From: Sphingopyxis sp. TUF1
GTDB taxonomy: Bacteria; Pseudomonadota; Alphaproteobacteria; Sphingomonadales; Sphingomonadaceae
Assembly (NCBI RefSeq): GCF_036687315.1
Contig: NZ_CP144683.1
Span: 1,930,001-1,994,000 of the forward strand
Reading direction: 5' to 3'
DNA length: 64,000 nt
The translations under genes and the position numbers were made by a program. The notes beneath the pieces are model-generated. The model ran no database searches. It was not told the origin of the DNA and saw nothing but the letters and a program-made list of their open reading frames with translations. Numbering within the stretch: the stretch's first letter is position 1; each line of letters begins with the position of its first letter. Shown here piece after piece: positions 4,798 to 47,788 of the stretch.

Positions 4798-6348
4798 ATG
4801 GTCAGCGCTGCCGCCCCCGCCGCCGCCCCCCCTGCCGACCCGCAGCCGCTGACCGGCGTGCGGCTGCTCGTCGCGGCCTTCGCGCTCGCGCTCGCCAATT
4901 TTGTCGTCGTGCTCGACACGACGATCGCCAATGTGTCGGTGCCGCATATCGCGGGCGGGCTCGCCGTGTCGCCGACGCAGGGGACGTGGGTGATCACCAG
5001 CTATGCCGTCGCGGACGCGATCAGCGTGCCGCTCACCGGCTGGCTTGCCTATCGCTTCGGCACGGTGCGCTGGTTCCTCTATTCGATTTTCGGTTTCGGG
5101 CTGTTTTCGGTTTTGTGCGGCGTCGCGCAGACGCTCGACGCGCTCGTCCTTTTCCGCATCCTCCAGGGCCTGTCGGGCGGCCCGCTGATGCCGCTGTCGC
5201 AGATCCTGCTGCTGCGCATCTTCCCCAGGGAAAAGGCCGGTATCGCGCTCGCCATCTGGGCGATGACGACGACCACCGCGCCGATCCTTGGGCCCATCCT
5301 CGGCGGGCTGATCAGCGATAACTGGAGCTGGCACTGGATTTTCTTCATCAATCTGCCGGTGGTCGCGATCTGCGCCTTTGGCGTCGCGACGCTGCTTACG
5401 CCGTTCGAGACGCAGCGCGTCAAATTGCCGATCGACGTCGTCGGGCTGATCCTGCTCGTGGTGTCGGTCGGCGCGTTCCAGATCATGCTCGATACCGGGC
5501 GCGAGCATGACTGGTTCGGTTCGGCGTGGATCGTCACGCTGGCGATCATTGCCGCGATCAGCTTTGCGGCGTTCGTCATATGGGAGCTGACCGACGCCAA
5601 CCCCATCGTCAATCTGCGCATCTTTCGTTTTCGCGGTTTCACCTTCGGCACAATCGCGCTGTCGCTGGGGTTCGGCGCCTTTTTCGCGCAGGTCGTGCTG
5701 ACGCCGCTGTGGCTGCAACAGGTCGCGGGCTATACCGCGACCGAGACGGGGTATGTCGTCGCCTGGCTCGGTTGTTTCGCGGTGCTGTTTTCGCCGATTG
5801 CGGCGGGAACGCTGGGCAAGCTCGACATCCGGCTGACGGTCAGTGCGGGCATATTGTGGATGGCGGCGATGTCGATCCTGCGCGCGAGTTGGAATGCCGA
5901 TGTCGATTATTGGACGCTGGCGCTGCCGCATGTGTTGCAGGGAATGGGGATGCCCTTTTTCTTCGTCGGACTGACCGCACTGGTGCTGAGTTCGGTGTCG
6001 GTGAAGGACCAGACCTCGGCGGCGGGGTTGATGAGTTTCCTGCGCACCCTGAGCGGTGCGATCGGAACCGCGGTCGCGACGACCGCGTGGGACGAATCGA
6101 GCCGGACGTCGCGGTCGGAGCTTGTTTCGTCGCTCAATGATCCGGGCGGGTTCATGGCGTCGCTCGAACGCGCGGGCCTGACGCTCGAACAGGCGCGCGC
6201 GCTGCTCGACCGGCTGGTTGAGGTGCAGGCGCTCACGCTGAGCGTGATCCACATCTTCCTCGCCGCCGCGGCGGTGTTCGTCATCGCCGCGGCCGCCGTC
6301 TGGATCGCACCCAGACCCAAACAGATTTCGATGGGCGCGTCGCACTAG
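4798..6348 (+). CDS. DHA2-family (EmrB/QacA-like) drug:H+ antiporter
   Basis: The 516-residue, 14-helix permease has the DHA2 segment VLDTTIANVSVPHIAGG in helix 1, GTWVITSYAVADAISVPLTG in helix 2, and GPILGGLISDNWSWHWIFF in the motif-C/helix-5 region. It is the inner-membrane component of the pump encoded by the two upstream genes. An in-frame ATG at 4780 is also possible, and neither start has a strong ribosome-binding site. A palindromic repeat separates it from the adaptor gene. The substrate cannot be told from sequence. Confidence 0.92.
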   Translation: MVSAAAPAAAPPADPQPLTGVRLLVAAFALALANFVVVLDTTIANVSVPHIAGGLAVSPTQGTWVITSYAVADAISVPLTGWLAYRFGTVRWFLYSIFGFGLFSVLCGVAQTLDALVLFRILQGLSGGPLMPLSQILLLRIFPREKAGIALAIWAMTTTTAPILGPILGGLISDNWSWHWIFFINLPVVAICAFGVATLLTPFETQRVKLPIDVVGLILLVVSVGAFQIMLDTGREHDWFGSAWIVTLAIIAAISFAAFVIWELTDANPIVNLRIFRFRGFTFGTIALSLGFGAFFAQVVLTPLWLQQVAGYTATETGYVVAWLGCFAVLFSPIAAGTLGKLDIRLTVSAGILWMAAMSILRASWNADVDYWTLALPHVLQGMGMPFFFVGLTALVLSSVSVKDQTSAAGLMSFLRTLSGAIGTAVATTAWDESSRTSRSELVSSLNDPGGFMASLERAGLTLEQARALLDRLVEVQALTLSVIHIFLAAAAVFVIAAAAVWIAPRPKQISMGASH

Positions 6349-44210: not shown

Positions 44211-44354
44211 AGGATTGCAGTCCCCATGTTGGCGCGGCGGGGGAATGACGGCCGATGCCCGTTCGGGAGAGCGGAGCTAAGCGGAGTCGCACGCGCAGGT
44301 TTATGTCCGCGCCGCCTTACGCCGGGGGTGGGGAAATGCAAGGGGGTGGGGGCA

Positions 44355-45182
44355 TTAGCCGCTAATCTCAGCAACCTTCTGCACGAGTTTGGTCACGTCC
44401 CACGTCTCAAACGGCACACCTACAAGCGCATAAACCTCGGCGCTCAGGATCGGGTGCGCGATGCCCTCTCGACTCCAATCAACCTTCTTATCGTTGGTGA
44501 CCAGAACAACCTGCTGGAACTCAATCTTGCGGCGCTTCGCGACCAAGATGGCATCCAACATATCGAGCCAAACAAAAAAATCGCCATCGCCGTCGTCTTT
44601 GAAACCAGGTGGAGTCTTCGTTCTTTTGCGGTGTAATGCGATCTGAGAAAATCGTTCCCGCGTGACGTAGCTCGTAAGCGCTTTGTCCTTGAGAAGCTCT
44701 AGAAGTGCTACTGTCCTTCTAACCGTAACGCCATCGTAGGCGTAGCCGTAGGACGACCGAAATTCATCAATAAGTGCAGAAAATCTTTCAGAAAAATCCT
44801 GGAAATTTCCATCTACTTTTTCAATTTCGGCTTTTAATGCGTCAAATTTCCTGCTGATTCCTGTCGCTATCGTGTCGGCCACGTTTAGATTGTTGTTCCA
44901 AAATTCTTGAATTGATTGTCCGGGAAGAATTAGCGGTGCTTCATGCCGTGTGTTGAGATAGTCGATTACGTCGGGCTGCGATCCGAGTCGTAGAAAGGCG
45001 CTTGAGTCTAAAACGATAGCCGACTTCGCGAGGGTCATATCTCGCGGTTCGGGCTTGTATGCGTAAATCAGCGCGCTGCGAGAGTCGAAGTGCGACTGGC
45101 GATTAACCAGCGAGAGAATCTCGGTTTCGCGCGCTTCTTTTTCTTCGGGACTGCTAATCGAACCAGATCGTCGCGGCAGCAT
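44355..45182 (-). CDS. PIN-like nuclease protein, partner of a DUF262 protein
   Basis: The protein, about 275 residues, has a PIN-like (PIN_8/DUF4935-type) plan. Acidic positions typical of the catalytic site are visible in IVLDSSAFL, LPGQSIQEFWNN, DDGDGDFFVWLDML and VLVTNDKKVDW. The middle is a helical insert. PPGFKDDG precedes the third acidic cluster, as in PIN_8 proteins. It is predicted to be a ribonuclease or DNase. It overlaps the DUF262 gene's 3' end by at least 29 bp, and starts at 45206 or 45221 are also open. Its AT-rich codons differ from neighbours. Confidence 0.78.
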   Translation of the reverse strand: MLPRRSGSISSPEEKEARETEILSLVNRQSHFDSRSALIYAYKPEPRDMTLAKSAIVLDSSAFLRLGSQPDVIDYLNTRHEAPLILPGQSIQEFWNNNLNVADTIATGISRKFDALKAEIEKVDGNFQDFSERFSALIDEFRSSYGYAYDGVTVRRTVALLELLKDKALTSYVTRERFSQIALHRKRTKTPPGFKDDGDGDFFVWLDMLDAILVAKRRKIEFQQVVLVTNDKKVDWSREGIAHPILSAEVYALVGVPFETWDVTKLVQKVAEISG

Positions 45183-46767
45183 CCGCCAAAGCTTCCCCAA
45201 TTTCATCCACGGCTTCGGCATCCCACTGATCCACCTCTTCCAGAATATCGCTCCACTCGTCTTCTATTGCATATGGAAGCAGTCTAGCTTTGAAATCTTC
45301 CCATGAATCAATCGCGATGGGTCGACGTTCAAGTTCAGCCAGAAATGTATTCCCGATTGTGGCGCTCCAGTACACACCATCCTCTTCGCTCATTTCGCTC
45401 CAGTTATCGGCTTGTCGAGTCCAGATGAAGTGGAGGGTTCCATAGCGTTCAGGTGTCATGCTATCTTCGACAACTGATCGACGCATAAATGCTAGAACGC
45501 TTTTGTTGAACGATCTCGTCTTTAGCTGACGAGCGAAATCATCGCGCGACGGGTTGAGGTCACGAAGATCGTTAACGACAGATGTCCAGTCATTGGTATC
45601 GGCAATTTTTCTTGCGGCTTCACCAAACCTTCGTTCGACGTTACCAGTACCGAGATTTCCGACAACGATACGTCGTACGACAAGGCGCAAGACGTACTCC
45701 ATTCCTTCTTGGGCGTTTGGGACATCGGCGATAGCGAGAAGAAGGGGGCGCACTGCGATAACCCCGAGGCTATTTAAGGCTGAGAAAACCTTGAGCGCAT
45801 CTGGCTGCGCCGGGCCATCTAAGCTCGGATCAATCATCTGTAGATAGATCGGCAAGCGCCGGCTGAGCAGCGCCATAAGATCGGGGACGGTGGGCGGATT
45901 CTTCCCCGTGAAACTTAGGCGGCCAGCAAGAAATCCAAAGAGGTCTTTCGGTAGCACGTGACCCGCATCAACCGTAACGGCGTGCCGGATGAATTGTACG
46001 AAATTGTTCGTCCCTTCATCGACGAACCTGCGTTGCATAAGCTGCCATTCTTCATATCTATCAGCTCGATGATTAGGTGGTGTCTGGCTAAGAACATAGT
46101 TTTTGAGTAGGTCAGCAGTCGTAAGCTCTTTTCCGCGTGTGTTGATAACCTCGTAAACTTGATACGCGGATGAGGAATCAGGATGCACGAATACAGCAAA
46201 ATACAGCCTGTCTGTAAGGAATTTGGTCCATTTTCCAAGGCGCTTGAACGGGTCTTGAGCTAGATCTTCCTTTAGGCGTTTCAGCAAATAATCATAGGAC
46301 TCCGCCATCCGAGCAGAAACCGAATCTTTTTCCTTAATTTGTGGAGCAATTCCCGTATCCAAAATTGCCTGAAGGGTGCCGTCATCCCGCAGGTCCGAAA
46401 GCTTTACCCGTGGAGCCGTTTCGTCTGAATCGTAGTCAATTGCACGAATAAAGTCAGCTTGTATACGATCTGCCAGTGCTTCGCGGCCACGCTTGGACGC
46501 TTCGTGATATATCGCATTAGCCAATAGCGTAAGGGTAATTAGTCGCTGTTGTCCATCGACAACAGATTTTCTGTCAGGGCTATCCGTCAGGATTATGAGG
46601 CCAAGAAAATAGGAATCGGAGTCGATATTATTACTCAAGTCAGTCCAGAAATCCGTTACTTCATCGGTGCCCCATGAATACTCTCTTTGGAACGGGGGGA
46701 TTTCGAAAGTGGCATTGGAGAGCAATGCACCGGCACTACTAGCGGATGCATTTAACGGAGTTTGCAC
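45154..46767 (-). CDS. DUF262 (GmrS-like) protein with an apparently inactive HNH-type C-terminus
   Basis: The 537-residue protein has an N-terminal DUF262 ParB-like domain: FEIPPFQREYSW at residues 21-32, DGQQRLITL at 71-79 and VYEVINTRGKELTTADLLKN later. The C-terminal part is laid out like DUF1524 (LAFMRRSV, then LHFIWTRQADNW, then TIGNTFLAELERRP). The EHIxP-type His motif of the HNH nuclease is not recognisable, however. GmrSD-type proteins are modification-dependent restriction enzymes. Here nuclease activity may come from the overlapping PIN gene. GTG start: GAGGGG lies seven bases upstream. Confidence 0.8.
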   Translation of the reverse strand: MQTPLNASASSAGALLSNATFEIPPFQREYSWGTDEVTDFWTDLSNNIDSDSYFLGLIILTDSPDRKSVVDGQQRLITLTLLANAIYHEASKRGREALADRIQADFIRAIDYDSDETAPRVKLSDLRDDGTLQAILDTGIAPQIKEKDSVSARMAESYDYLLKRLKEDLAQDPFKRLGKWTKFLTDRLYFAVFVHPDSSSAYQVYEVINTRGKELTTADLLKNYVLSQTPPNHRADRYEEWQLMQRRFVDEGTNNFVQFIRHAVTVDAGHVLPKDLFGFLAGRLSFTGKNPPTVPDLMALLSRRLPIYLQMIDPSLDGPAQPDALKVFSALNSLGVIAVRPLLLAIADVPNAQEGMEYVLRLVVRRIVVGNLGTGNVERRFGEAARKIADTNDWTSVVNDLRDLNPSRDDFARQLKTRSFNKSVLAFMRRSVVEDSMTPERYGTLHFIWTRQADNWSEMSEEDGVYWSATIGNTFLAELERRPIAIDSWEDFKARLLPYAIEDEWSDILEEVDQWDAEAVDEIGEALADAAATIWFD

Positions 46768-46865
46768 GTGGGATCCCCTCAAGGCAGCTGCTGCGGCGTC
46801 CGACTTTCACTATGCATTAGCCGGAAGTGAGGTGCCGTTCAATCCGGTTGGCACTGGAATTACGG

Positions 46866-46879
46866 AATTACGGTGACAG
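46866..46879 (+). repeat. Short repeat AATTACGGTGACAG, copy 1
   Basis: AATTACGGTGACAG recurs exactly at 53265-53278. Here it follows a partial duplication (GGAATTAC twice). Motifs of the type GGTGACAGTTTACTT accompany REP-associated transposase elements in other proteobacteria, so it may be a relic; this link is from memory and unverified. Confidence 0.45.
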
Positions 46880-46915
46880 TTCACTTTACCCCGATATTCG
46901 TTTCACGCGCCTCGA

Positions 46916-47215
46916 TCACTCCACCAATCCCAGCTCCTGCCCCGCATGGAAAATGCGCAACACCTCGACCACCTCACCGACCCGATAGGCAATAACCGTC
47001 CGCCCGCGAAAGTTCAGCGTTCGCACACCCGGCGCGATGTCGTCGCGTGGGGTGCCGCGTTCGGGAAAGGTCGCGAGGTCGCCGGCGTGGGCCTCGATCG
47101 CGCCGGTGTAGGCGAACGCCGTGTCGGGATCGGCGCGGTCGGCGATCCAGTCGTAGAGGCGGTAGAGGTCGTCGGTCGCAGTCTGGCGCCAGACGACGCG
47201 GAGCGGCCTGGTCAA
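46916..47215 (-). CDS. RelE/ParE-superfamily toxin
   Basis: The 99-residue protein has the ParE-type fold sequence VVWRQTATDDLYRLYDWIAD, FPERGTPRDDIAPGVRTLNF and RTVIAYRVGEVVEVLRIFHAGQ. It overlaps the upstream antitoxin gene by four bases (antitoxin first), the standard type II toxin-antitoxin arrangement. Whether it poisons gyrase or cleaves mRNA is not evident; the ParD-like antitoxin favours ParE. Confidence 0.9.
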   Translation of the reverse strand: MTRPLRVVWRQTATDDLYRLYDWIADRADPDTAFAYTGAIEAHAGDLATFPERGTPRDDIAPGVRTLNFRGRTVIAYRVGEVVEVLRIFHAGQELGLVE

Positions 47216-47484
47216 GCGGACTTGCTCGTCCGCTGAGCGTGGCGAGCGGCTAGGCCGGTGCGGACGTCTTCGGCGGACTGGGCCGGGCGCGTGTCGGCGA
47301 GCGCTTCGGCGACGCGGGCCTTGAGCAGTTCGTCGAGCAGCGCTTCCTCGCGGTCGAGCGCGCGCAGGCCCGCGCGGACGACTTCGCTGACCGAGGCGTA
47401 GCGGCCCGATTTGACGCGATCCTGCGCGGCGCGGGTGAGCGGGCCGAGGGTGACGGTAACGGGCTTTTCGGCGCGCGATGCCAT
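47212..47484 (-). CDS. ParD-like ribbon-helix-helix antitoxin
   Basis: The 90-residue protein begins with a ribbon-helix-helix (PVTVTLGPLTRAAQDRVKSG, YASVSEVVRAGLRALDREE) and has an acidic/alanine-rich tail that would wrap the toxin. AGGAG lies seven bases before the start. A perfect 15-bp palindrome lies 12 bp upstream of the start, a likely autoregulatory operator. Confidence 0.9.
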   Translation of the reverse strand: MASRAEKPVTVTLGPLTRAAQDRVKSGRYASVSEVVRAGLRALDREEALLDELLKARVAEALADTRPAQSAEDVRTGLAARHAQRTSKSA

Positions 47485-47495
47485 GGGCGTTCTCC

Positions 47496-47510
47496 TATGA
47501 CATTGTCATA
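47496..47510. promoter_or_regulatory. 15-bp palindrome upstream of the toxin-antitoxin pair
   Basis: TATGACATTGTCATA is a perfect palindrome around a central T. It sits just before the antitoxin's ribosome-binding site, where a ParD-ParE complex would block transcription. The surrounding sequence is AT-rich relative to neighbours, compatible with a promoter. Confidence 0.65.
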
Positions 47511-47600
47511 TCATGCGGGTGGGAGGTGGGTCAATTTTCTGCTTCGTTTCTCTCGGTGGGGGTGCGGCTCTGTGTCCGGTTATTCCTGCGCCGTCGCATG

Positions 47601-47625
47601 GATCCCGGATCAAGTCCGGGATGAC
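47601..47625. repeat. Short inverted repeat GATCCCGGA/TCCGGGATGAC
   Basis: ATCCCGGA and TCCGGGAT enclose a TCAAG loop. It resembles the CGAGATCCCGGCCTTCGCCG element at 54223. It lies in the 406-bp interval between the antitoxin and the HTH gene, which also holds the palindromic block 47789-47851 but no convincing gene. Confidence 0.6.
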
Positions 47626-47788
47626 GATTTGGGGGGGTGGGATTTTTCGCTTTCCTACATTATCCAAATAGGTTCAAAGCTTCTCCGATTCATTCCAAGG
47701 TGATTCGGGAGGTTGAGCTATGGCGCGTGTAGTGGAGCGGGGTTCGCGGGGGAAAGCGGTGGCGTTGCGCGGGGGTGACTGTGCCCTC

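Follow-up and report, generated by a model that had tools for sequence, protein, structure and literature searches.

The systems closest to the locus described here are modification-sensing anti-phage defences of the GmrSD/HEC-06 type. In GmrSD, BrxU, TgvAB and GrwAB, a DUF262 domain with QR and DGQQR motifs is combined with a DUF1524 HNH domain that serves as the effector. TgvAB and GrwAB each need two proteins (PMC11411939, PMC12137116), and the HEC-06 proteins of Payne and colleagues are said to function independently (PMC11411939). DndI and SspE carry a DUF262 domain and a C-terminal DUF1524-type domain, and their own HNH domain nicks DNA (PMC11662687); modified DNA stimulates NTP hydrolysis by DUF262, which alters the action of the HNH domain (PMC11662687, PMC10952713). 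Menshen has a DUF262 gene and a separate predicted nuclease, which is a predicted OLD nuclease rather than a PIN protein (PMC10952713). ptuXYZ has an HNH-less DUF262 protein in an operon with a PIN-like protein, but comprises three genes, including a PtuA-like ATPase; the PIN domain there has no catalytic residues and is accompanied by a YoeB-like domain, and PtuX is shorter than the DUF262 protein studied here (PMC11980606). In Pseudomonas fluorescens SBW25, megaplasmids impose a fitness cost that is due to PFLU4242, a DUF262-DUF1524 protein (PMC8544851). We found that Sphingopyxis sp. TUF1 encodes a DUF262 protein together with a PIN_8 protein, a pair that is probably a new variant of GmrSD/HEC-06 defence. 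The literature that we surveyed on HEC-06, GmrSD, DUF262 with PIN and DndI, some of it available in part and taking in a minority of the subscription papers and none of the bioRxiv preprints, does not describe the pair; ptuXYZ comes nearest.

The pair occupies 44355-46767 on the minus strand of the window, the 64,000-nucleotide stretch of the genome that we analysed, with the DUF262 gene first and the overlapping PIN_8 gene second. The features are as follows.

45154..46767, minus strand: DUF262 protein of 537 aa, with an N-terminal GmrSD_N NTPase/sensor domain and a C-terminal DUF1524-like domain without the catalytic His (Pfam, PADLOC, hhalign)
46543..46557, minus strand: NTPase motif DGQQR, at residues 70-74 if numbered from the Q that follows the GTG (121-row alignment)
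45412..45438, minus strand: degenerate HNH motif T-L-H-F-I-W-T-R-Q, which in relatives reads T-I-E-H-I-L-P-x-N (hhalign and MAFFT register)
44355..45221, minus strand: PIN_8 nuclease-like protein overlapping the DUF262 gene, 288 aa (ATG 45221) or 275 aa (ATG 45182) (Pfam PIN_8, conserved acidic residues)
44354..47600, no strand: segment absent from same-genus relatives and containing PIN, DUF262 and ParDE, its right end weakly set at about 47600-47650 (genus comparison)

The original prediction, made from the window's letters, had given the same span for the two genes. This span is right: the DUF262 GTG lies at 46767-46765, a start backed by relatives that begin at the same M-x-TPLNAS, and the stop at 45154-45156. 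Both candidate PIN starts fall inside the DUF262 gene, so that the overlap is 29 bp from ATG 45182 (the database start) or 68 bp from ATG 45221, and the true PIN start is uncertain. GC content is 0.50 in each of the two genes versus 0.65 in the window, as expected from the predicted AT-richness, and the toxin-antitoxin pair predicted beside them was recovered as matches to ParD and ParE. This ParDE pair (46916-47484) shares the variable segment with the AT-rich DUF262-PIN pair, yet has a host-like GC content of 0.70, which suggests separate arrivals. ParDE looks incidental to the DUF262-PIN pair.

The pair sits in a variable, AT-rich segment beside acnA. Our same-genus comparison covered 12 genomes, three of which reach a contig end. 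In 9/9 relatives with flanking DNA, similarity to the window upstream of acnA extends to 44350-44353, just past the PIN stop, and none of the genomes matches 44354-47580. Collinear homology resumes in two of the nine, at 47600-47627 in L146 and at 47648 in L150. L146 has a nearly empty site, with only about 130 bp in place of the segment, and L150 has about 1 kb of other DNA. The matches in L144 and L154 are short and inverted and set no right boundary. Spread by phages gained no support: phage records gave no PIN match (E 1e-5), viral contigs gave one weak PIN match (24% identity), and the 68 DUF262 loci in viral contigs are distant.

The DUF262 protein is GmrSD-like. It matches Pfam GmrSD_N (E 9.9e-35), and the PADLOC HEC-06 model covers nearly its whole length (E 1.5e-75, with the 542-aa frame from an upstream TTG as the query). 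It has the N-terminal DUF262 domain with QR and DGQQR motifs that GmrSD and HEC-06 share. We aligned each of the two proteins in 121 rows, comprising the window and 120 listed homologues, with the window's own protein present twice, as query and as database copy. The GmrS-like motifs that were originally picked out are all present and nearly invariant: QR in 119/119 rows, DGQQ in 121/121 with the following R in 120/121, and NTRG in 121/121. Both genes are under purifying selection in the comparison of the window with L002 (pN 0.13 for DUF262 and 0.21 for PIN, with pS saturated).

The C-terminus tells a different story from the sensor domain. HEC-06-type proteins that bear EHIxP can be aligned with it from end to end (hhalign probability 100, E 9.9e-55; 22 rows of the pair clade, A2, against A4, which holds 18 of the 28 fetched HNH-bearing relatives). 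In this register, EHILP corresponds to H-F-I-W-T, with Phe at the position of the catalytic His. Across the 121 rows this column holds F in 104, L in 10, Y in 5, S and M in one each, and H in none. Pro occurs at residue 449 in 24/121 rows, matching the EHIxP Pro, which supports the register that places Phe at the catalytic position. In a wider MAFFT alignment (without L129 and L130, which are the same as L006 and the window), Glu-His is present in 29/29 relatives outside the clade and in 0/30 distinct pair members, two of which (L007, L011) have His at the catalytic column. The Asn of the HNH helix falls near Arg 480/481, where most rows have Arg or Lys. Thus, of the Glu-His and Asn residues that typify the His-Me finger in the C-terminal DUF1524 domain of GmrSD and HEC-06, the pair keeps the Asn of the GN motif alone (N472, the middle Asn of the HNH motif), in 121/121 rows. 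H445, one residue ahead of the catalytic column, is His in 118/121. Judged from the invariant middle Asn and near-invariant H445, the DUF1524-like domain is under constraint. The original prediction of a DUF1524 layout with an unrecognisable catalytic motif is borne out, as both hhalign and MAFFT show that the HNH site is not intact. Whereas the DUF1524 HNH domain is the effector in GmrSD, BrxU, TgvAB and GrwAB, the present pair has lost the key residues of that domain and includes a PIN protein.

In the PIN protein, by contrast with the HNH domain, the active site looks intact from its alignment. The protein matches Pfam PIN_8 (E 1.9e-12; 48.1 bits against a gathering cut-off of 26.1), with no match among PADLOC or NCBIfam models and nothing meaningful among PDB sequences (best E 0.2). 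Where four acidic sites had been predicted in an overlapping PIN-like gene, we count seven conserved acidic positions: D72 (119/120 rows), E106, D209, D214 and D248 (each 121/121), D212 (120/121) and D244 (114/121, with E in the other 7). We assign metal-site roles among them on general knowledge of PIN domains, as a presumption. All but D212 also occur in four distant PIN_8-like proteins (L029, L030, L031 and L186), which match at only 26-29 bits.

How tightly are the two genes linked? Using the PIN alignment to scan genome contigs, we obtained 30 loci, comprising 27 close homologues and three weak ones (L029-L031) that lack such a DUF262 gene. A DUF262 gene lies directly upstream on the same strand in 25 of the 27; of the two exceptions, L022 is a truncated PIN gene that has no DUF262 beside it and L028 lies at a contig edge. 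The two profile matches overlap in 21/25 paired loci and are at most 46 bp apart in the rest. A search of 296 genomes from the order located each gene in two, our own included; the two genomes are the same for both genes, which are adjacent there. In the class, four of 385 genomes carry the DUF262 clade, each with an adjacent PIN gene (one of them split, in G415), besides one contig-edge PIN fragment and one distant DUF262 without PIN. The linkage that the original prediction needed is therefore found elsewhere. The distribution is patchy, spanning Alphaproteobacteria, Gammaproteobacteria and Actinomycetota.

The HEC-06-type relatives outside the clade that we examined behave differently. The HEC-06 profile (E 1e-40) gave 37 matches in 33/299 genomes of the phylum, of which we fetched 30; 28 of these 30 fall outside the pair clade. 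These 28 and L107 make 29 HNH-intact relatives, and none has a PIN profile match in fetched flanks of up to 1.5 kb, some of them cut by contig ends. The HEC-06 relatives examined thus keep Glu-His and have no PIN match in these flanks, whereas pairing is near-obligate in our set; its occurrence in 25/27 loci suggests that this DUF262 protein may not act as a single protein.

A few copies have come apart. In L187 (G415:C1:1402500-1412500), the PIN pieces at 2791-2928 and 4955-5605 are separated by about 2 kb with a transposase-like ORF and DUF262 is open, so the two genes are separable. In L165 (10435-12050, a plasmid of Rhodococcus sp. DMF-1), the annotation breaks DUF262 into two pieces next to an open PIN gene, which could reflect decay or a sequencing error. 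We rejected a natural DUF262-PIN fusion: the sole fused protein, P0241, switches out of the DUF262 frame after TIGNTF and reaches the PIN frame through unrelated residues, and is likelier, from this junction, to be a frameshift product.

The phylogeny ties these changes together. In a 58-row tree whose alignment included the HNH columns, the 30 pair members group together as a single clade (support 100/100, branch 2.24); the tree left out L165 (split gene), L125 (cut) and L101 and L105 (same genomes as L015 and L012), and L022 has no DUF262 row. The tree needs one label change, against 19.6 in shuffles. The branch on which Glu-His is lost is also the one that marks the presence of PIN, as a hand-over of nuclease function predicts. 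Moreover, DUF262 and PIN distances correlate (r 0.78 over 28 pairs, a value that includes shared species history); 0/1000 permutations were as high, and none exceeded 0.31.

We also surveyed the genes beside the pair. A HamB-type helicase adjoins it in L009, and a methyltransferase and a DEAD/DEAH helicase in L165. In L163 (5200-9945, plasmid pTi6.2 of Rhizobium rhododendri), the pair adjoins a DNA adenine methylase and a DpnII-family restriction gene. In L018 (1803-6857, Rhizobium rhizophilum), a 1685-aa ORF lies just upstream of the pair, and DpdF and GajB helicase models match different parts of it. This neighbour scan is descriptive, has no control set, and shows the commonest families among 131/183 neighbours (25/26 loci, at most three a side). 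The expectation that the pair would lie near defence genes held in part: several copies have defence genes beside them, but many neighbours lack a PADLOC match (9/10, 5/10 and 7/10 large neighbours in three sets, at the limits used).

Why would a DUF262 protein keep its sensor and lose its nuclease? The sensor motifs are kept, the HNH residues are lost and a PIN gene overlaps, so the simplest reading is that the effector is now a partner. On this sequence evidence, we consider it probable that the pair is a two-gene, type-IV-restriction-like defence module made of an NTP sensor and a PIN effector. The architecture, HNH loss, near-obligate pairing, co-divergence, conserved motifs, patchiness and defence neighbours come from direct sequence comparison; we infer complex formation, gating, the cue and anti-phage action. 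By analogy with GmrSD, BrxU, SspE and DndI, the DUF262 protein would bind NTP and sense the state of nucleic acids, with DNA modification as the likeliest cue. Its HNH domain would have decayed into a structural or docking domain, and the PIN_8 protein, encoded in the overlapping frame, would have taken over the cutting. The DUF262 protein would hold PIN and release or activate it once the sensor meets its cue and hydrolyses NTP, a gating carried over from DndI, SspE and BrxU. The move of nuclease activity from HNH to PIN, proposed originally, gains support from HNH loss, pairing and a single clade with co-divergence. The PIN substrate would be RNA or DNA, and RNA cleavage is typical of many PIN toxins. 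HEPN domains joined to DUF262 have been listed earlier (PMC3710099), so an RNase output would have a parallel.

A possible but unlikely view, which overlaps with the sensor-effector reading, is that the pair was ancestrally the restriction half of a Dnd phosphorothioation system, like DndI or SspE, with PIN as the effector; copies away from dnd would sense phosphorothioate or another mark on incoming DNA. The best PDB sequence match of the DUF262 protein is DndI (9jfl, E 1.6e-15), a DUF262-HNH phosphorothioate sensor (PMC11662687), and SspE is also among its best matches of known structure. When we searched 33 loci with five Dnd proteins (tblastn), a complete dndABCDE adjoined the pair in 4/28 pair loci (25 genome contigs and three plasmid-collection records): L006 Methylobacterium, L011 Actinomadura, L023 Mycobacterium sp. 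and L164 Nonomuraea, the last an 11.85-Mb replicon. The dnd genes start some 90-930 bp past PIN; they show two arrangements, and the four loci fall at three places in the tree. NCBIfam models confirm DndB, C and D in L006 (DndA falls just below the cut-off) and DndE in L023, and find the dnd-associated methyltransferase TIGR04096 in all four. L023, then L011 with L164, branch first in the clade (the second fork, 94/78, is not starred). DndC occurs in 5/25 relatives' genomes versus 7/240 genomes of the same class (Fisher p 0.0025), although this comparison mixes phyla. The 25 are 24 genomes with the pair and one with the L022 remnant, L016's genome being left out; DndC lies next to the pair in three of the five, on another contig in one (L021), and is a weaker match in one (L004).

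Several points count against this view. No DndC match turned up in our own genome or in the remaining 20 of the 25 relatives' genomes (limits E 1e-40 and 1e-3). A dnd_restrict_1-like protein is also encoded in the genomes of L011 and L023 (547 and 539 bits; cut-off 600), so the pair is not the sole restriction candidate there. The dnd genes adjoin HNH-type or other DUF262 genes too, in the DndI-like arrangements of L142, L183 and L184; L142 has a DndA match and weak DndE matches, and DUF262 matches lie at two DndC loci. Finally, we tried the sensing-patch aromatic (Y25 in DndI) as a marker of dnd linkage, and it is Phe or Tyr in pair members without tracking dnd. A further possible but unlikely reading is an effector swap, in which one DUF262 lineage would have lost HNH and gained PIN, and modification sensing, perhaps ancestrally of phosphorothioation to judge from the first branches of the clade, would trigger PIN, possibly leading to RNA cleavage and abortive defence.

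It is distinctly improbable that PIN is a VapC-like toxin neutralised by the DUF262 protein, with phage defence secondary. A PIN toxin is often encoded second in an overlapping operon, and ParDE lies in the same segment. However, the partner is no small antitoxin, at 537 aa with nearly invariant NTPase motifs, and PIN is open beside a DUF262 gene that is split (L165) or in two frames (L016), where sequencing errors are possible. Least probable of all, the DUF1524-like domain would still be an active, unorthodox His-Me nuclease with PIN as an accessory, for which H445, N472 and the catalytic-column His of L007 and L011 speak, but Glu-His is lost in 30/30 distinct pair members, the helix Asn has become Arg or Lys in most rows, and Pro 449 backs the register with Phe at the catalytic place.

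Altogether, the sensor-effector reading would describe a modification-sensing NTPase that has parted from its built-in nuclease and been coupled to another nuclease class, a hand-over placed on one branch of the tree. Sensor/effector modularity in phage defence thereby becomes testable. Our findings also suggest that current HEC-06 models may put two mechanisms under one name.
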